From Dicyema japonicum (lineage: Eukaryota; Dicyemida; Rhombozoa; Dicyemidae): 64,000 bases of DNA. Shown one piece after another: positions 1,569 to 59,200 of this stretch (the stretch's first letter is position 1; each line of letters opens with the position of its first letter). The stretch lies in NCBI GenBank assembly GCA_011109175.1, contig RDEW01000007.1, positions 557,712-621,711 of the forward strand, in the 5' to 3' direction. The position numbers and the translations under genes are program-made. The notes beneath the pieces were generated by a model that was not told where the DNA came from, ran no database searches, and saw nothing but the letters and a program-made list of their open reading frames with translations.

Positions 1569-4255
1569 TCATTTCCACATATAAGGGGGAATCTCGTCAA
1601 CAGTAATGTCCTCACATCGAGTGTCTCCACCGACATTATAAGCCACTCTTAGCTTCATTTTAATCCCTCCCGCATTCTACAACTCACAAAAAGGCTTACC
1701 TGAGTAGTCACAAAAATATTCTGGATAAAACTACCGAACCCCTCCACCACAGTAGTCCTCGGTGGACACACCTCGACTTTCATATTCTGCATAAACCATC
1801 AACCTCACCTTAAGAACAGCCACTTTCACGTGCAAATCACAGATTACGCTCGAAGTCCTGCTATCCACCACCACATCGATCCCCCATCGAGGACCTGGAC
1901 AGCTCGGAAACAAAAGTTTAACGGAAATTTCGTTCCCCTCGTAAACTAGGGTAATTTAAAAATTCCACCGATTAAACATGACTCTTCCATCTTTTCCGTT
2001 TTTCCGTCAAATTCAGGCACGTGATCAGACAGTTCGTTAAAACCCAACACATCCGACAGTTCAGATTTACAGATTCCACCGATTAAACATGACTCTTCCA
2101 TCTTTTCCGTTTTTCCGTAAATTTCAGCCACGTGATCAGACAGTTCGTTAAAACCCAACAAATCCGATTGTTCAGATTTACAGATTCCGCCGATTAAACA
2201 TGGCTCTTGCACCTTTTCCGTTTTTCCGTCAATTTTAGCCACGTGATCAGACGGATCGTTTAACCACAACAAATCCGACGGTTCAGAATTACAGATTCCG
2301 CCGATTAAACATGGCTCTTCCACCTTTTCCATTTTTCTGTAAATTTCAGCCACGTGAACAGACAGATCGTTGAAGCCCAACACATCCGACCGTTCAGATT
2401 TCTCATTTTTTTCAGCATACTTGGAATCACCCCCTCCAAATCCATTAGTGAATTCCACCTCCTCGTCAATTTTGTCAGAGAAGAAACTAGAATTTCAGTC
2501 AATGCCAACCCTTCTCTGTCGAGCACGTGCAAGCATTCATATGCCCGCTGTTGCACATCAGGGTCACTGTAGTGAGAATACGGATCAATGATCCCCCTCA
2601 CTCTGTCCTTCACGGTCTCTACCTTGTTCCCCAGTTTCGCCAAAGATACAAGTCCGTATTGGATTAGAGCCACATCGACCTTCCTCAGCGCCAGACTTAC
2701 TACCATGTCGACCAGCTCAGCACTATTCCAAAATTCCCGACTGATCAGAAGATCACAATACTCCCCCACACACCATACAGCCACCTGAGTCATTTGTGGA
2801 CATGTAGGAGTCATATTATTGATGATTTTTCGAATAATGGGCAGTCTCTCCGCAGACTGCATACACAGAATGGTCTGAATCAGGGAGAAAACAAAGTCAT
2901 TTTCCACAAATTTTCCCGCCAAATTCACAGTCTTGAGTACCACGTCCACATACCAGTTGATAGAAATACAGTATTTGCGAGCATTTATCATCACAGCACG
3001 ACAGCACTCACTCTTAGTACTCGCAGGACATCTATTCCCGAGATAAGTCAGCAAGGACTCGATCACAAAGTCCACGTTATCCTCAGAGACAATATTCTGA
3101 GAATGTACAAGGCGAGGCTGAATATCAGTAAGCAAGCAACTTTGATAGGGTGGGGACATTTTCGAGCAGACAGGCAGAGATTTTAGTCAGGTGCTCAGAG
3201 ACAAGCCGTTTGTGGGAGTAGACAAACTTCTTCATTATCGAAAGAGCAGTAAATCTATCTGATGGGGGAGAAAATACCTAAAATGGACGTATTTGAAGGT
3301 CAGAAAGTTCGAGATGAAGTCCATGGACTGGTGGATGCCCTCATCGTCGTTGCACTGTTTGAAGCAGAACATAATTTCACAAATGACACTGAATCTGTTA
3401 GAATTCTGACTCACAAAGAAAGCCTAGGCGTTTTTTACGAAAAAAAACCTGGCAAAATAAGGAAGTAATCTCCGTTGAGGTCCTTCCGATGGCCTTTATG
3501 AGTCTAATTAACGAAATAAGGGAGAAAGAGTCGATGAAGCAAACTCCGGGTCTGTTCTGAGATTTTATGTGGAACTCTATCAAAGAAACGACTTTTTCGA
3601 GAATATTCTACAGTGAAATCACGGAAACATACATCTCTACAGTATTCACGGTACTCAGGTCCGATCTCACATATTGCCGTCAACAGAGTCACGGCAGAGT
3701 AGACAAGTCCGTGAACCTCACGTCCATCTGAGGAAATTATGCGGAAAACTGGGGTGAAGAAGGTCTCGGCTGAGCTCGGAACACATCGGACTATGCTTTC
3801 AGCCACAAAAAGAGCTTTTTTCCGGATTTGTCTGCTTCCATTTTGTGCCATAATTGAGACTTCGTCCACGAATTCTCTCAGAAGAAGTTCAGATTTTATA
3901 TTTGCGAGGCAATTCAGAGCGAGATTTATCACCTCCTGCCTTGAATGAACAAGAAGGTCCTTTTTGAGGACATTTGTGAGCAGCAAATGAGTCTCAGAGT
4001 TGGAGTCAAAAAGGATAGTCGCGGCGAGGTACCCGAGCCTCTTTTGGCTGAATTTGTCAGAAATCATCAAATTGAGACATTCTAACTGGGCAAAGTGAGT
4101 CGAGTATCCAAGCATGTTGAGATAAATTATTTTCCCGATATTTTTTATCGAATCAGTTTTGCTTTTTTTAGATTTGCTGAGGGATTCTCTAATTCTTGCA
4201 CATTCGTGATTAATCAGGGAGGCCATTTCCCCATCAGTTCGGCAATTTCGGACAT
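1569..4255 (-). CDS. AP1G1: AP-1 complex subunit gamma (gamma-adaptin)
   Basis: Large subunit of the AP-1 clathrin adaptor, which sorts cargo between the trans-Golgi and endosomes. The N-terminal trunk is clear: INHECARIRESL, YLNMLGYSTHFAQLECL, KRLGYLAATILFD and VHGLVYSAVTLLTAICE at 3504-4226, then VAVWCVGEYCDLL and DVQQRAYECLHVLD at 2460-3159. The hinge (1950-2450) carries four 37-residue repeats. The C-terminal ear ends KLRVAYNVGGDTRCEDITVD and PPYMW, with its stop at 1569-1571. Introns of 23 nt (1680-1702) and 26 nt (before EVEFTNGFGG, near 2460) restore the frame. The start MSEIAELMGKWPP (4253-4255) is joined to LINHECA only if the CCC at about 4223 is read as CCCC, so one base is probably missing. 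A second frame change lies near 3560. The family call is secure, the exact exon borders in 3200-3560 are not. Confidence 0.9.
1962..2405 (-). repeat. 111-bp tandem repeat, 4 copies, in the gamma-adaptin hinge
   Basis: Copies begin at 1962, 2073, 2184 and 2295, exactly 111 bp apart, and keep the reading frame (37 codons). Each encodes a variant of SDxLGFNELSDHVAEIxGKT followed by EKxEEPCLIGGICKSE. The lower-coordinate pair is nearly identical while the others have drifted, so the array has both old and recent copies. Confidence 0.95.
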
Positions 4256-4984
4256 CCGAGATGAGGCTGGTTTATGTTCCTGCTTGTCTTGAATCTGGAA
4301 ATAAACTTAATTCGAACCTATTTCCGATATTCATTGAATTTAAAACTATACGACCTACTTGGCTAATTAATCCTTAAATACATTTAAATTATTTTTATTA
4401 AGTATAAATAAATTTTTTATTTTTTAAATTTATTTTAAAAAAGCAATTTAATTTTGTTGAAAGGGTGTGTAGAATACTTCTGTTTTTCGCCAATCCTGAG
4501 GAAACCTCTCCGACAAAATACATAAGTACTACGTACCCGTTTGCTGTTTTTTGAAGGTTCCCTTTTTTCTCACAAACCCAAATCGAACCCACGCAAATAG
4601 AAGTGGAATCTGCTATGAAGGCAACCTATGCTTTCCTCCCAGATGCCATATTCAAATTGCGGGGCCCTGTGGTATCGTTTCCTAACACAGATCTACAAGT
4701 CAATAATACATATCCAGACCATCTGAAGGTTTCGGATATACATCAATCCTGGAACCTAGTAGACCGAAGGATTCCCCCTGTATATGACAAGAATCCTGGA
4801 AAAACTAATTATCGACATGATCCGCCCATATCCAATTATTTCATGATATTTATAGAATTTGGTATTTTTAGGTATTTAATTACCTCAGCCTCTCACTAAT
4901 AAGAAGCCTGGGGTCTTCAACCACCGCTGAGATTGCTAGAGGCTTCTGCTAGCCTTTCAGAGTGAGTGAAGGTCAATTAATTGC
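4256..4984. other. AT-rich spacer with one weak ORF
   Basis: No recognised gene. An open frame on the plus strand at 4603-4899 (98 codons, starting MESAMKATYAF) has no family resemblance I can see and is followed by A+T-rich sequence. It may be a relic. Confidence 0.3.
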
Positions 4985-11099: not shown

Positions 11100-11800
<701 letters not shown>

Positions 11801-12089
11801 GTAGTCCTATATCAATAAAACGTTAAACATGTATTTAAATTAATATTATTTATTAAAATAATTTTAATAATATAATTTTCACTAAAATGTGCTGATTGAT
11901 GTGGGACCTGATTTTTAAATCTTAAGATAACTCAAAATTAATAGCTTTCGAGTTGCTCTCTTGAATTCAGTAATTGCATAGTGACTGTTTGACTTTAGTG
12001 AGTTCAATAATAATGTTCTATACCAGTCACGGAGAATGAAAAGACTGAGAATATTTATTAACCCATTGCTTACCATCTTTTGCAATCTC
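11801..12089. other. AT-rich spacer
   Basis: Upstream of the TGS1 start. No ORF or repeat recognised. Confidence 0.3.
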
Positions 12090-19385: not shown

Positions 19386-19947
19386 TTATGAAAAATAATC
19401 AACAAGAAATGGCTTTAGTTTTGCGAAAGCGGCAGATCTGTGGGAAACCTGCTGTTTTTCAAGAGTCGTCATCTCTGCATAGGTTTTATCCCCAGTGAGA
19501 GGTCTAAAGCAAGGATCCCAACCAAATTCAGTCTCCCCACGTGGATGGACAATCTCTCCTTCAACAGACCCGGTAAATAATCTGACTTGATTTCCGTCAT
19601 AGAAAGCAAAAGTGGTGGAAGCCGTGGCTCCTTTGTTGGGGAACCCACTCAGTGAAAAGTCCACCCGGACCGATCTTTTCAAGGAACCATTTAATGTAGG
19701 GACCTGGAAGCCCCCCAAGAGAGTGAAATCCAAGGCTGGTGTCCTCACATAACACAGGGACCTTCATATTATTGTATGCTTCTTTGATCTTCATTGTAGC
19801 AATGTATTCCTCCGTTCCTTGATATTCTGGGATGTCGATTTTTTGTGAGGTAACTTTACCGCCGAGCTCATCCCCCAACATTAATTGGAGTTCTTTTAGC
19901 TTATTTTTATTACTGGTCACAAATACTATACTCTTCACAGAGTTCAT
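19386..19947 (-). CDS. ITPA: Inosine triphosphate pyrophosphatase
   Basis: Hydrolyses ITP, dITP and XTP to the monophosphates, keeping deaminated purines out of DNA and RNA. The first frame reads IVFVTSNKNKLKELQLMLGD (the nucleotide-binding TSNxxKLxE), QKIDIPEYQGT, VLCEDTSLGF and LGGLPGPYIKWFLEKIG. The second reads GFPNKGATASTTFAFYDG, VHPRGETEFGWDPCFRP, TYAEMTTLEKQQVSHRSAAF and ends at 19386. Both halves together have the family length. They join only if one T is dropped from the TTTT at about 19662. No intron fits, so a sequencing indel is more likely than a disabled gene. No intron was seen in this gene. Confidence 0.93.
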
Positions 19948-19999
19948 CCTTAATAATAATTTAAATTAAATTACTTTTTAATATAAAAAATAGTTTTAG

Positions 20000-26335: not shown

Positions 26336-26684
26336 GTGAGATTTTCCTTGTCAATTTCAATATGGAAAATATTAAACGAATAAAAGACAGAGAAACTGCC
26401 TCTAACTATTTTCGAAATATCTCAAGGAAATAACTGTTTTGTATTCAACATTTTGTAAGCTTGCACGACTTTTAAGACCACTTTTTGATTTTTATAATTA
26501 AAAAAGACCTATGAACTTTGCAGTAATTTTTAAGCAGCAAATTTACTTAGTTTCCTATCTGTTCAACTTAAATTGTCTATTTTAGAAATTTTCGAAAATG
26601 TCCGAAACACAAAAAATTTCCATTTTTGGAGATTATGGCAAAATATAAGAAGTAAATATCGCAATTTGTTTCCTAAAAATAAAT
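26336..26684. other. AT-rich upstream region of the ETS-like gene
   Basis: No coding signal. It lies between the divergent starts of the 26.3 kb minus gene and the 26.7 kb plus gene, so promoter elements of both could be here. Confidence 0.3.
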
Positions 26685-29600
26685 ATGCCACGAAATAGGA
26701 GAAGTTGGAGAGATACAGAAAACACCTTTGATCACATAGAATTGAATCCCAGAGAAGAGGAATTCTTAATAAACTGGAGACCATGTAAGAAAGTGTATAT
26801 TCACATTTAGCGTCGGGGACATTGTTGTTATTGGACTTTATATTCGAACTCCTACAAAGTCAATGCCCGTTCGTGGAATGGGATAATTACACAGATGGGA
26901 AATTTATAATTCGGAATGTGGAAGTGATGTCTTATGCTTGGGGAGTATACACGGGAAACTCCGAAATGAATATTGACAAATTTTGCAGAGCCTTGAGAAC
27001 AAAGTACAGACATAATTTACTCATAAAAACCGAATCAGTAGTTCATGGATTCGAATTTATAAACAGAGTAAGTTTTTTACGCAATTTTTAGGAACTTTTC
27101 ACAAGAAATAGAATCATAAATCGAGAAAACGTTCCACAAGCGAGACGGACGAGGGTTATTCTGAGACAAAATATTATAATTCCATTAACAGAACAAGAAG
27201 TATATGAATCTCGAGTAAATATGGAAACCATTCAAGACGCAACTAATTTTGGGAATCCCATAGAATCCAGTAACAGAACATTTCCAAATCCTCAAGAATC
27301 ACAGAATGTTCCACAACAAAATATTAATCAGGAATTTCAACTACAACATCGTGAGGTGGTTTTAAATCCAGAATATCAACACTTATACCAACAAACTCAA
27401 CAAAATGTTGAACAAAGAGTCCCCACAGAATATCACTATCAACAAAACGTTCCACAAGAGTTCCCAATGGAAAACTATAGCCAACAAAATGTTCAACAAG
27501 AATTCCCAGTTCATCACTATGATCAACAAAATGTTCAACAAGAGCTCCCAGTTCAATACTATGATCAACAAAATGTTCAACAAGAGTTCCCAGTTCAATA
27601 CTATGATCAACAAAATGTTCAACAAGAGTTCCCAGTTCTATACTATGATCCACAAAATGTTGAACAAGAATTCCCAGTTCTGTACTATGATCAACAAAAT
27701 GTTCAACAAGACTTCCCAGTTCTATCACTATGATCCACAAAATGTTCAACAAGAGCTCCCAGTTCAATACTATGATCAACAAAATGTTCAACAAGAGTTC
27801 CCAGTTCAACACTATGATCAACAAAATGTTCAACAAGAGTTCCCAGTTCAATACTATGATCAACAAAATGTTCAACAAGAGTTCCCAGTTCAGTAGTATG
27901 ATCAACAAAATGTTCAACAAGAGTTCCCAGTTCAATACTATGATCAACAAAATGTTCAACAAGAATTCCCAGTTCAATACTATGATCCACAAAATGTTGT
28001 ACAAGAGTTCCCAGTTGAGCACTATGATCAACAAAATGTTACAAGAGTTCCCAGTTCAATACTATGATCACAAAATGTTCAACAAGAATTCCCAGTTCAA
28101 TACTATGATCCACAAAATGTTCAACAAGAGCTCCCAGTTGAACACTATAATCAACAAAATGTTCAACAAGAGTTCCAAGTTGAACACTATGATCAACAAA
28201 ATGTTCAACAAGAGCTCCCAGTTCAACACTATGATCAACAAAATGTTCAACAAGAGTTCCCAGTTGAACACTATGATCAACAAAATGTTCAACAAGAATT
28301 CCCAGTTCATCACTATGATCAACAAAATGTTCAACAAGAGTTCCCAGTTGAACACTATGATCAACAAAATGTTCAACAAGAGTTCCCAGTTCAACACTAT
28401 GATCAACAAAATGTTATAGATGAGTTTCCATTCGATTGTTATTCTCCTCTAAATTTTGAAGATCAATCTGAATTTCAAAATGAGATCCACCAACCTCAGG
28501 AGATACCGAATCTAGATATAAGTACAGAGGATCAAAATGAACAACTTCAGTCTCAAGGAAATGCAGATCAAGAGGTAGCAGCTGAATCTCAAAAGAAAAT
28601 AAATGATACTAAAGTTGATTCCGATTGGGACAGGAATACTTTTGATTTGATGGAAGAACTGACATTAGGTAAACGATCTACCCCATGTTCTTCTATATCT
28701 TCAAGCAAAAAACAAAAACGTTTTGTTACACCTCTCCTAGATCATCCAATTTCTCCTGTTGTTTCACCCCCCGTAAATATTAATGTGTCCCCCGAAAATT
28801 CTGAAAACATTACTTCAAATCTCTTATTTGTTTTGTCTCATTTGCCAGCAGTAAACGTGGAACCTCCTGCAACCATATCTCCCAGGGATAACGAATTTGA
28901 AGATCACAGGGAACCTCCTGCAACCATATCTCCAAGGGATAACGAAATTGAAGATCACAGAGAACCTCTATCACCTATCAATATTGAGAGACCAATTGAG
29001 AGATCTGTAAGAAGATTAAGACAAGATCATTTAATTTCTGAGAATATCTATCATTATGATCCGGAATCAGGATCTTTTCAGAACAGAGCCAAAATTCAAG
29101 CAACGGAAGCTGATTTTGTGGATCAAAATGAAGAAATAATTCAAACAACATCGGATAACCAAACAGAAATAGAAAATGTACCAGTCTCGGGAATTGAGGA
29201 AGAAAATCAAAATCGACAAATATCGGATGCCCAAACAACTCCAATCCCCCAACCGAGTCCAGAATTTCAAATTCAAGAATCTTCAATTTATCCAAATACT
29301 CTTACACCGAGAACCCCAATAAGGAATACATTTCTATTACAAGTTCGACCCACCGCTGAAACTCCCGGGGATCAAAGCCAGAGAGTCTTAATTTCCCAAG
29401 TTCAGAAATTTGTTTGAGGACGCAAGTTCAACCAAGAAATGAAACTATGCCTCAGACTGAACGTCCACAATATAGGTAATATTTCGTCATACTTCATAGA
29501 GCACGTTCAATGCCACGTGGACAATCATATAATTTATCCATGTACAATCCAAATCAAAGAAACCCAATACGCTTTCCGATGGCCAATATCAGAGAATCTT

Positions 29601-30085
29601 CCCATATGCGAATTCAACCTCCATTAAGATTTTGCAGAAATCCCAGTTATGGGCAGCGGATGCATCTAAGATACCCTCAAAGTCAACAAATGACTCAGAA
29701 TCCCCATTATAATGAGGAATATCAGAGAACTCATATTGACAGTTCGCAAACTATGGACAGTTATCCGCCCTCTTACAATTCACAGAACTTCTACTATCAT
29801 CCGTCCTCTTATGCTTTACAGAACCCCTACCATCCTTCGTCTGCCTATGCTGGACAATTTCCCTACCACCCTTCGTCTGCTTATGCTGGACAATTCCCCT
29901 ACCACCCTTCATCTATTTATGGTTCACAGACTATTCGCTACTCTCCGTCTACTTTTAGTTCACAAAGTCCCCAATATCCTTCGTCTATTCATAATCCTGT
30001 TGGTAGCAATCAAGCGGAGTCTAGTAGCAGTAATCCTCAATCGGAAGAAAGTCAACGCTCAAGACGGAGTTCAAGACATAATTAA
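26685..30085 (+). CDS. Divergent ETS-domain protein with long Q-rich repeat region
   Basis: Exon 1 (26685) encodes MPRNRRSWRDTENTFDHIEL. After a 26-nt intron (26785-26810) comes a divergent ETS DNA-binding domain: LLLLDFIFELLQ, FVEWDNYTDGKFIIRN, AWGVYTGNSEMNIDKFCRAL, RTKYRHNLLIK and GFEFINR. This follows the ETS pattern (LWQFLLELL, W..GEF, WG, MNYDKLSRALR.YY). A 24-nt intron follows at about 27068-27091. The middle is about 23 copies of a 14-residue repeat (27430-28425), then an acidic Ser/Pro-rich part with a duplicated PPATISPRDNE unit (28850-28970). The last exons contain YHPSSAYAGQFP repeats and end SRRSSRHN (stop near 30085). An intron of 24 nt lies near 29475. Frame shifts and one TAG occur only inside the 14-residue array. 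The junction near 29410 is unresolved. A transcription factor with a low-complexity tail is the likely role. Confidence 0.7.
27430..28425 (+). repeat. 42-bp coding tandem repeat, about 23 copies
   Basis: Unit encodes QQNVQQEFPVQYYD with substitutions such as ELPV, VEHY and HHYDP. Period is 42 bp throughout. Exceptions are an extra base near 27725, a TAC-to-TAG change at 27894-27896, and two shortened units near 28040 and 28070. The indels sum to the shift seen between the frame before and after the array. Confidence 0.95.
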
Positions 30086-30500
30086 CTATAGTTAGAATAT
30101 TTAAATTTATTTATATATGTCTTTGTTGATAATTTCATAGTATAAAATTATATTAAAAAAATTCAATTTAATCGTCCTGTCTAAATTATTATTTTATTTA
30201 AACACCTCAAGACCACGGTCAAAAATCTAGACTAACAATTTAAAAAATATTATCTGATATGTGGGGCAACCAATTGCAATAAATTACAATTAAATATAAT
30301 TTAATAAAAATTTGATAAATAATAAAGTAGTGAATAATAATTAATTTTAGTTATCTTTTTTAATTTAAATTTGCACTTTTTGCAAAAATGTTTCGATTTT
30401 TAATTATTTTAGGCCAAAGAATCAGTTAATATCAAAGAATCAGGCCCACGTTGTTTTCAAGTTTAACCGAAATCAGTTTAAACTATTTGGTTTTAATTTT
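30086..30500. other. AT-rich 3' flank
   Basis: No gene recognised. Contains AATAAA-like words that could serve the ETS-like gene's polyadenylation. Confidence 0.3.
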
Positions 30501-34126: not shown

Positions 34127-35708
34127 GTGTCCAGACATTTGGCCTACATGACAGGAAATTTAGCACAAATAACTAAGAAATATGCCATACTTTTTATTAG
34201 CACATTGTTTTAAAATTCAGAGATAAAATTAAAGATAAAAACATCAAATAAAAAGAGTTAAAAAGTTACATCAATACTCATTGTTCTGTAGGTAAAACAG
34301 TTAAGATTTACTTAAAGGTTATGAGAAAACGCACTCAAAAATTCTACTGGAGTGTATTCATCATATTTTTCAATAATACTGTTCATCCTTTTGTTCACAT
34401 CCTGGTACTTCTTTACTTGTCTTATAGTTATTCCGGCCATCACTTGTTCTACTGTGAGCTCCCACTCTGACTGTTCTCGTATTTTTGCAACAAGCCGACG
34501 AACGGTTGGATGTTTTATAGACACTCTTTGTGAAAAAGATCTGTGTCATCCTTCATGTGAATTCGTAGTTCTTGGGAAGCCTTCTGCCTGTCTGTTATGT
34601 ACATTTCCAAACTAAACAATGGTCTTTTCTTTCCACGTTGCAAGGCTCCGATCCATGTTGTCTCAAAATAGGTCAGAAAATCTCCCAACACGTCATCAGT
34701 CTCGTAATCAATAATTTCAAGGAGCGCTCGGAAACTCTCAATGTCTTGAGGTACAGGAACAAATGCCAGTGCTTGAATACTTTTAATTAAGTTTGCATTT
34801 GCTGGGTCATACCATGCCTGCAGTCCTAGATTTTGTATTTTTCGCCATAAACACTGCCCAAAGTAAAAGTAGCAGCCATACACATTTGCATTTGGAAAAA
34901 TTCTGTTGATAGCATTGATCGCTGCTCGCTCATAATCTATGGTAAATGATAGTGGATTCAATTGTGGCCTTTTCTCTTTCAGTGTTGAAAATGTTTGTTC
35001 ATACATTGTTGAGATTTTTCTCGAGCAATAGCGTACACTAATGGAACCGTACACGTTTCACATAATGTAACATGTGTATAACTGAAAACCTAATGGAGCT
35101 GAATCAAAAGTACCATCACATAACCAATGTTCTTTCATAGACATAAGATCAAGGTTTCTTGCTGTTGTTAATATAAGCAATCCATCACTATCGTGTAGCA
35201 CAAAATCATCTCTGAGAGTACTTCTAAGTTCATCAGTTAGAACATTACCGTCTTGTATTTGATCTGTACGCTGTCGTCGAACAGTACGTGCAAGGGTTTC
35301 TTTTTTGGGTAGCGCACAAGCAGCAATAGGGTATGTGCAAAACAATTTTGGATAACTGTGGATGTAGTTTCTTCAGAATCTCTCGCTCTCTTCTTTATCG
35401 TATTGACGGTTTTCAGCGCATGTAAACGTCCTGCATTTGGTGGATGTTCGTGTGGTGTCATAGTTCCATTAAGTTCTTCGTTAACAGTTCTTACTCTGCC
35501 TTTGCATTTTCCTTTCAGCTCACATCTCCAATATATGACATTGTCGCTCTGTCTATCCATAATGTACGCATAGCAGAAGTTTTTTTTCCACAAGTGGTTT
35601 GTGTAAATTCCATTTTTTACCATTATTAAAATACATAGTGTATTTTTTGATCATTTATGCTTAATTGAATTGTCGGCTAAATGTCCTGTCGGCCAAATGT
35701 CCTAGTAC
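34127..35708 (-). mobile_element. MULE-type DNA transposon with terminal inverted repeats
   Basis: Right end 35671-35708 reads GTCGGCTAAATGTCCTGTCG followed by GCCAAATGTCCTAG. The left end 34127-34172, read on the minus strand, has GCTAAATTTCCTGTC, a 5-bp insertion, then GGCCAAATGTC. The two ends are therefore inverted copies, each holding two GGCYAAATGTCC words. Between them lies a broken MULE transposase. I could not define a target duplication. Confidence 0.75.
34312..35623 (-). pseudogene. FLYWCH/MULE transposase, disabled
   Basis: N-terminal part reads VIYWRCELKGKCKGRVRTVN and TPHEHPPNAGRLHAL, a FLYWCH-type zinc finger. The MULE domain follows: MKEHWLCDGTFDSAP, LGFQLYT, SFTIDYERAAINAINRIFPN, GCYFYFGQCLWRKIQ. 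The C-terminal part has NSHEG*HRSFSQRVSIKHPT, where the stop sits in place of the family's invariant Trp (NNxxEGWHR). A frameshift near 35330 and another before the last part also break it. The DGTFDSAP and DYE...AA..FP motifs carry acidic residues expected for the DDE site. Confidence 0.85.
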
Positions 35709-57719: not shown

Positions 57720-59200
57720 TTTTATTATTATTATTATAGGCACGTACGCGATCACGACAAAGCATGTGCAACACGAAAAGGTAACAATTTAATTAACATC
57801 GCCCTGCTTTTTCGATTCGTTGTCATGTTCCGTAGCATATCTAGATAATCCCCATCTTTAAGGCACTTTCCAATCCTCCTGAGATCTTCACTAGGATTAC
57901 CGGCAGTGTTGTCCTCGGCCGTCGCGAAAAGACGAAGCCTCTAAAATAAAATACTCCTTCCATTTCTATGTTGGCAGGGGTCCCCATATCGTGGCGGAGT
58001 ATGTGTCCAAACAGCCTCCATTTTTAATCTGTAACATGATATTGGCTCAGTCCCTGTTCTCTTGTATAAGATTTCGGACGACATTTTGAAAATGCTTCGG
58101 AAAGAAGTGCTCGGAGATGATTTCTATGAAAAGAATTCAACTATTCGAGTTCCTGCCTTTTACATGCCCATGTACCGGCATTATATAATAAGATTGGCCT
58201 CACTAGGATATTGTATAGTCTTAGGGTCAAACCCTTTATGCAGAAGCCAGGTCTTCTTCATTTTGTTGAAAGCGACGTTAGTTATTGTCTTCCTTCGTGT
58301 TATATCTTCGATGTTATCGAAAAAGGATCCTAGTTTTTTTATCTACGCCAGTGCTCCTCGGTCCTTTCCTCACTTCTTTTTAACTCCGTGATTTCGGTTT
58401 TGTTTGTGTTTACTTTTAATGACCATTCAGCCATTTTATCAGGCATTTTCTCCAAAAGTGCAATTAACTCTGTTATTCGGAATAAAGTCCACGTCATCCG
58501 CATATCCTATTATTCCCGTTCCTTCTTCGATATGAGGCTTCAAGTCTCATAGAGCTGCCTCCAGATAAATAATGAACAAAATCAGGGATAATGGATCTCC
58601 TTGAAAGGTACCAATTGTCGTTTCAAATGTCCTCGATAAAGCTTTCCCAGTCCTGACCATCAAATTTGTGTCCTTCAAGAGTGTCCTGACAATCCTAATC
58701 GTTGATCCCTCCAAGAAGTGCTCCAGTATTTGCAGAAGCTTGTTCCTGTTGACTGAATCATAGGCCTTTGACATATAAATCTCAAGAATGGTTGTCGTTA
58801 TTTTAAATTTTTGAACAGTCGCACTTCTGCATTTGTGGCTCCAGTAACATCTGACGTTGATCTCCCTTTTCGGAAGCCACTTTGATAAGCCGACATGTAT
58901 ATGCGCTTGACTAGGTCCTTTCTTATAGCAAATCCAAGTCCGTAATGTTTTGATCCCCCAGAAAAAAAAATTAACTTAAACTTTCCGTGTTGTTCTTCAA
59001 ACTCCTTCGATATTTTTGTCTCTTGGAGACATCTGATTGATATCTTATATTTTGAGAAGTCTTCACAAAGTTCTTTTCTTTTCCATGCACTAGAGAGTCC
59101 TCTGACATTGAACGTTAAAAGAGAAAAGTCCTTTAGATTGCGATTTTCGTGTTTTTTCAGACATAACTTTCAAGAGGGACGTCACTACCTCAACCGCGGC
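57720..59200 (-). pseudogene. APE-type LINE with internal deletion
   Basis: On the minus strand the 5' end (59080-59190) reads LTFNVRGLSSAWKRKELCED and CLQETK, the start of the APE domain. At 58900-58970 GLGFAIRKDLVKR is followed directly by SAYQSGFRKGRSTSDVTGAT, so the remainder of the endonuclease and the linker have been deleted. The reverse transcriptase continues with SKAYDSVNRNKLLQILEHFL (58547-58774), FQGDPLSLILFIIYLEAAL and the catalytic GIIGYADDVDFI (58500). A C-terminal RLFGHIL block and RGFVFSRRPRTTLP end it near 57750. Frameshifts interrupt the last third. Confidence 0.85.

Follow-up and report, generated by a model that had tools for sequence, protein, structure and literature searches.

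A divergent ETS gene with a coding minisatellite and a repetitive tail, very probably from a dicyemid

Introduction

The classical ETS factors (ELK, ELF, ERG/FLI, ERF and others) have a DNA-binding domain with two arginines in its recognition helix, which we take to be the base-reading residues that read GGA. The gene described here has the same domain by profile and by sequence, and both arginines are kept. It differs from the classical factors in its very long branch, in the long coding minisatellite that follows the domain, and in the replacement of Lys and Tyr residues that we assume to contact the DNA backbone. A second point of comparison is EWS-FLI1 of Ewing sarcoma, described as combining the low-complexity domain of EWSR1 with the DNA-binding domain of FLI1, and which likewise pairs an ETS domain with a repetitive region containing Tyr and Gln. 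This likeness is an analogy of layout only: the present gene belongs to the germline, its ETS domain precedes the repetitive region, and its units are acidic. The EWS repeats presumably carry Ser and Gly, which the units here do not.

Dicyemids are parasites of octopuses. Their transcription-factor sets have been reported as strongly reduced (PMC6736024, PMC6543705), and a few lineage-specific homeobox expansions have already been described in them (PMC6543705). An ETS clade that has expanded, evolves fast and has aromatic or repeat-bearing tails would add local invention alongside this loss. The open-licence full texts searched held nothing on dicyemid or Dicyema ETS transcription factors, on lineage-specific ETS expansion in invertebrates or on an ETS domain with a tandem repeat.

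We analyzed a window, i.e., the whole stretch of 64,000 nucleotides, that is part of contig C159 of a 64.67-Mb assembly of 191 contigs, and genome searches covered this assembly. The D. japonicum genome is published at 65-67.5 Mb with a GC content of 36.7% (PMC6736024); the GC fraction of the window is 0.383. We describe a gene in this window that we read as a divergent, fast-evolving, lineage-specific ETS transcription factor with a repetitive tail, very probably dicyemid.

Gene structure

The features of the gene, in window coordinates, are as follows.

26685..26784, plus strand: exon 1, encoding MPRNRRSWRDTENTFDHIELNPREEEFLINWRP, by direct reading, with its ATG at 26685
26785..26810, plus strand: intron 1, 26 nt, GT..AG, by direct reading; intron 1 of the paralogue is identical
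26811..27067, plus strand: exon 2, ETS domain, with the genome-search match at 26828-27058
27068..27091, plus strand: intron 2, 24 nt, GT..AG, by direct reading; intron 2 of the paralogue is identical
27092..27396, plus strand: first part of exon 3, the linker ELFTRNRIINREN..QHLYQQ, an open frame
27397..28415, plus strand: array of exon 3, 24.3 copies of a 42-nt unit, QQNVQQEFPVQYYD, from TRF and unit lists; contains breaks of +1, TAG, -2 and -1
28416..29475, plus strand: last part of exon 3, acidic middle region, with a 51-nt duplication at 28859-28968 and a -1 break at 29384
29476..29499, plus strand: intron 3, 24 nt, GT..AG, by direct reading; 27 nt in the paralogue
29500..30085, plus strand: exon 4, a tail rich in Tyr, Ser and Pro; 36-nt repeat at 29808-29921, stop TAA at 30083-30085

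The initial annotation, made from the sequence alone, had given the 26-nt intron 1 and no other; that intron is confirmed, and introns 2 and 3 are additions to it. Retention of intron 2 would bring an in-frame stop into the message. The intron lengths of 24-26 nt in this gene fit a dicyemid: a mean of 26.2 nt is reported from 16 dicyemid introns (PMC2222250), and the median is given as 27 bp in dicyemids, whereas the orthonectid I. linei has a median of 57 bp (PMC6543705).

The ETS domain and its relatives in the genome

Exon 2 matches the Pfam ETS profile (PF00178) at 52.8 bits (E 5.1e-14), above the gathering cut-off of 26.9, and at 51.9 bits in the genome search. The domain is also matched by phmmer against PDB, and its fold matches are weak but consistent, with ETS domains leading. 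The earlier assignment to the ETS family is thus borne out by profile and sequence, with weaker support from fold. In the gene pieces scanned, no Pfam family other than ETS scored above its cut-off, and pieces 28416-29414 and 29510-30082 had no Pfam match.

Both recognition-helix arginines are present (RALR) when the domain is aligned to ELK1 and to the other ETS rows of the genome, where they are kept in 20 of 21 rows; in the remaining one the sequence stops short of the helix. The domain likewise retains the Trp of the WG motif and the MN.DK segment. However, several residues that make DNA-backbone contacts in ETS1 (K379, K381, Y395 and Y410) are replaced. Such replacements would fit a dominant-negative or structural ETS derivative that no longer binds DNA, or a repressor. 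We think this quite improbable, given that both arginines with their presumed base-reading role, the Trp and the MN.DK segment are kept, and that 84 of 85 residues of the ETS exon are the same in the paralogue described below, although conversion alone could explain the latter.

The genome holds 21 ETS matches above the cut-off. A tree was built from 28 rows, namely 8 references and 20 rows of the genome (L028 being omitted as partial). In it, the window gene, its paralogue and 10 small ETS genes form a clade of 12 rows with a support of 100/100, separate from the references and from eight classical ETS exons. The branch leading to the window gene and its paralogue is the longest (3.04 changes per column), and the bootstrap was not yet stable, so long-branch attraction may have contributed to their position within the clade. 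A direct search gave a similar grouping: the four nearest other matches are also clade members, at 39-43% identity, while the classical ones reach 33% or less.

There are 11 of these small expanded ETS genes (on C125, C2 twice, C118, C1, C117, C156, C130 three times, and C163), 10 of which are in the tree. As in the window gene, their ETS domain is N-terminal; in the five measured, an aromatic-rich tail follows it. The genome search found the 14-residue array in none of them, and their open frames have 82-377 aa. The last 30 residues contain 33-50% Y+F+W in all five expanded members measured (of 11), compared with 7% in the one classical tail sampled (of eight) and with none of 89 control ORFs reaching 33%, the controls being stop-to-stop ORFs from fetched loci rather than proven genes. 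The open frames of three members (L019, L023 and L026) stop before an aromatic end. In the 377-aa open frame of L020, on C118, a stretch of about 40 residues that contains Tyr is directly duplicated within the C-terminal region.

Altogether, the ETS family seems to have multiplied in this genome. Most blocks common to the expanded genes (rows of at least 250 nt) cover the gene and its surroundings over about 650-890 bp, and some reach 1.1-2.5 kb. We considered spread by mobile elements, and these block sizes suggest plain duplication instead. A protein-collection search with 202 aa of exons 1-3 returned 48 candidates, none at E <= 0.01, and one with a small expanded ETS protein returned 4, none at E <= 0.001. 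For an ETS query these numbers are low, which suggests a collection poor in animal ETS proteins, and the absence of homologues there therefore says little.

The inverted paralogue and proposed gene conversion

The paralogue lies about 31 kb away in inverted orientation, on the minus strand (C159:552977 to about 550248). It is open from its ATG through the array up to intron 3. Reading by eye places two one-base shifts in its tail, with less certainty about the position of the second. When 8 kb was compared with 9.7 kb, homology between the copies was confined to about 26557-30150. Nucleotide identity is 95-100% from 26717 to 27316; exon 1 matches except for one 3-nt gap and a few substitutions, and upstream of the array the copies share 209 of 218 residues of exons 1-3. 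They differ synonymously at 6 of 132 sites before the array and at about 21 of 120 beyond it (Fisher p 0.001), with dS after the array at about 0.20-0.27. That the ETS halves are near-identical, including introns 1 and 2, while the rest has diverged suggests gene conversion of the DNA-binding half, which is the simplest reading of the two sequences.

It could be argued that the two copies are a single locus assembled twice, either as haplotypes or through a false inversion, since they share a contig, are inverted and contain the stretch of 95-100% identity. However, the arrays differ throughout, there are many in-frame indels after the array, and homology takes in the gene and little more. In addition, dS after the array greatly exceeds the heterozygosity of D. 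japonicum, reported as 1.24% (PMC6736024). We hold a double assembly to be very improbable and treat the copies as paralogues.

Of 12 indels counted outside the array, 11 have a length divisible by 3 (a chance of about 5e-5 at one in three each). This comparison of the copies omits the array gap (712 nt), a gap of 3 nt in intron 3, gaps outside the gene and a 2-nt gap at 30079, which lies beyond the frame shift of the paralogue. After the array, dN/dS is 0.63 (5-95% interval 0.44-0.88; 261 codons), or 0.47 (0.28-0.83) over 183 well-aligned codons. Upstream of the array the value is 0.41 (0.16-1.28), and for the first part of exon 4 it is 0.82 (0.21-3.47); both intervals are compatible with neutrality. 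The value for the ETS exon alone, 0.25, comes from two differences and carries little weight. The in-frame indels and the dN/dS below 1 after the array would point to coding constraint on the copies; the TAG in the window copy and the shifts in the tail of the paralogue may leave room for decay of either one.

Frame breaks in the window copy

In this assembly, the frame of the window copy is interrupted by four small indels and one TAG. Compared with the array's own unit, there is one extra nucleotide near 27725, and two and one are missing between about 28038 and 28070; compared with the paralogue, one more is missing at 29384. The indels total -3, which brings the tail back into the starting frame. 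The TAG, at 27894-27896 within the array, stands in CAGTAG for CAATAC, a change that needs two substitutions.

Other genes of the same assembly have breaks of this kind. Among HSP70 sequences, 4 of 13 junctions between adjacent hits are exactly -1 nt, with no room for an intron, while one is +7 and eight are +20 to +97, as expected from introns or larger inserts; this control used 20 of 24 rows, omitting three C167 rows with internal stops and one nested C45 row. The HSP70 break on C66 was read by eye. Within the window, an ITPase (Ham1-like) gene at 19386-19965 on the minus strand is split into two overlapping frames with no visible intron. The two frames correspond to positions 1-88 and 107-185 of a single family profile, and this split is probably an assembly error. 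Four small ETS relatives, three on C130 and one on C2, likewise have hits split over two frames.

How should the breaks in the window copy be read? The window copy could be a decaying pseudogene and the inverted paralogue the working gene, which would explain the four indels and the TAG; the latter falls outside indel-type error because two substitutions are required. Yet one-base breaks are also found in HSP70, ITPase, the four small ETS relatives and the paralogue's own tail, and the window indels sum to a multiple that restores the frame. The dN/dS after the array also speaks against decay, though the paralogue alone could produce that value. We regard a pseudogene as possible but doubtful. 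The breaks in HSP70, ITPase and the small ETS relatives suggest that single-base errors are common in the assembly, and most of the frame breaks in the window ETS gene are probably assembly errors too.

The repeat array, middle region and tail

The 14-residue repeat array of the initial annotation is confirmed, with 24.3 copies at 90% matches by TRF where about 23 had been counted. All 10 array matches in the genome fall in the loci of the window gene and its paralogue, as do both matches to the middle region. In the window copy, a second sense frame is also open through the array, as is the minus strand, so its openness is no evidence of coding by itself. The ETS frame is, however, the only one of three sense frames that stays open through the array of the paralogue, and on this ground we take the array to be coding.

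The paralogue has seven full units and one partial unit of 14 residues, which differ from those of the window and are in frame throughout. Q+N makes up 0.380 and Tyr 0.105 of the window array (19 unbroken units), compared with 0.196 (half) and 0.028 (about a quarter) in the paralogue. What most units of both arrays have in common is the core NVxxEFP and the 14-residue spacing. The tail had been thought to look prion-like. Because NVxxEFP is shared between the arrays and Tyr and Q/N richness is not, a prion-like function is not favored.

These differences raise the question of whether the array does anything at all. It may be a neutral coding minisatellite, produced by slippage and unequal exchange in a disordered linker and tolerated rather than selected. 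Its units differ between the copies in Tyr, in Q/N and in number, and repeat turnover is also seen in the middle region and tail, with their 51-nt and 36-nt repeats. The common unit length and core, and the unbroken frame of the paralogue array, argue in the other direction, and we consider a neutral array a tentative alternative to one with a function of its own.

The region after the array had been described as Ser/Pro-rich. Ser and Pro do account for 10% each, but the region is better called acidic (D+E 18%) than plainly Ser/Pro-rich. The tyrosine-rich YHPSS tail reported with it is present, with the 36-nt repeat inside it; over an 80-residue stretch it has 16% Tyr and 21% Y+F+W, less extreme than the 33-50% of the five expanded members. 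The initial annotation also spoke of an ETS factor "fused" to the array, which is misleading, since the gene groups with a lineage-specific ETS clade whose five measured tails are aromatic-rich. Given such tails in the clade, the array looks like an expansion within a pre-existing C-terminal region rather than the joining of two genes.

Proposed mechanism

We lean modestly toward a lineage-specific ETS factor in which a C-terminal coding minisatellite would form a multivalent activating domain, the DNA-binding half would be homogenized by conversion, and the frame breaks would mostly be assembly errors. In such a factor, the ETS winged helix may bind GGA-type sites through its two retained recognition-helix arginines, with an affinity that would be altered because several backbone-contact residues are replaced. 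The presumably disordered C-terminal region, consisting of the NVxxEFP units, the acidic middle and the Tyr-rich tail, could then act as a multivalent transcription-activating domain, a role we infer because its composition is acidic-aromatic. The length of this region would change fast because it is a coding minisatellite, and gene conversion between the inverted copies would keep the DNA-binding half uniform. The paired copies, with a nearly identical DNA-binding half and two different arrays, offer a direct comparison of the effect of the tail on activation.

A bolder version is that the whole dicyemid clade is a natural counterpart of EWS-FLI1, with aromatic tails that cluster multivalently, an activating strength tuned by the length of the minisatellite and a DNA-binding half kept uniform by conversion. 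We think this unlikely. If true, it would be a transcription-factor invention in animals otherwise known for the loss of regulatory genes.

Other features of the window and genome

A search of the assembly for COX1 found none. Across the genome, we counted 67 homeodomain matches, partial exons included. This is closer to the 38, 39 and 55 homeoboxes published for three dicyemids (PMC6543705), with which it is compatible without being decisive; another paper reports 16 homeobox genes in D. japonicum (PMC6736024), fewer than the matches found here.

In the window, Rfam gave 0 matches at the gathering score. Two remnants on the minus strand scored just under the cut-off, one MULE transposase-like (34518-35057, 26.5 bits) and one reverse transcriptase-like (58550-58975, 27 bits). 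An Adaptin-like gene (Adaptin_N) lies on the minus strand at 1954-2401 and 2305-4271. Four copies of a 111-nt repeat overlap the downstream end of this gene and continue past it; they may be a further coding tandem array. An exon like that of an RNA cap guanine-N2 methyltransferase is found at 11231-11806 on the minus strand (77.5 bits).
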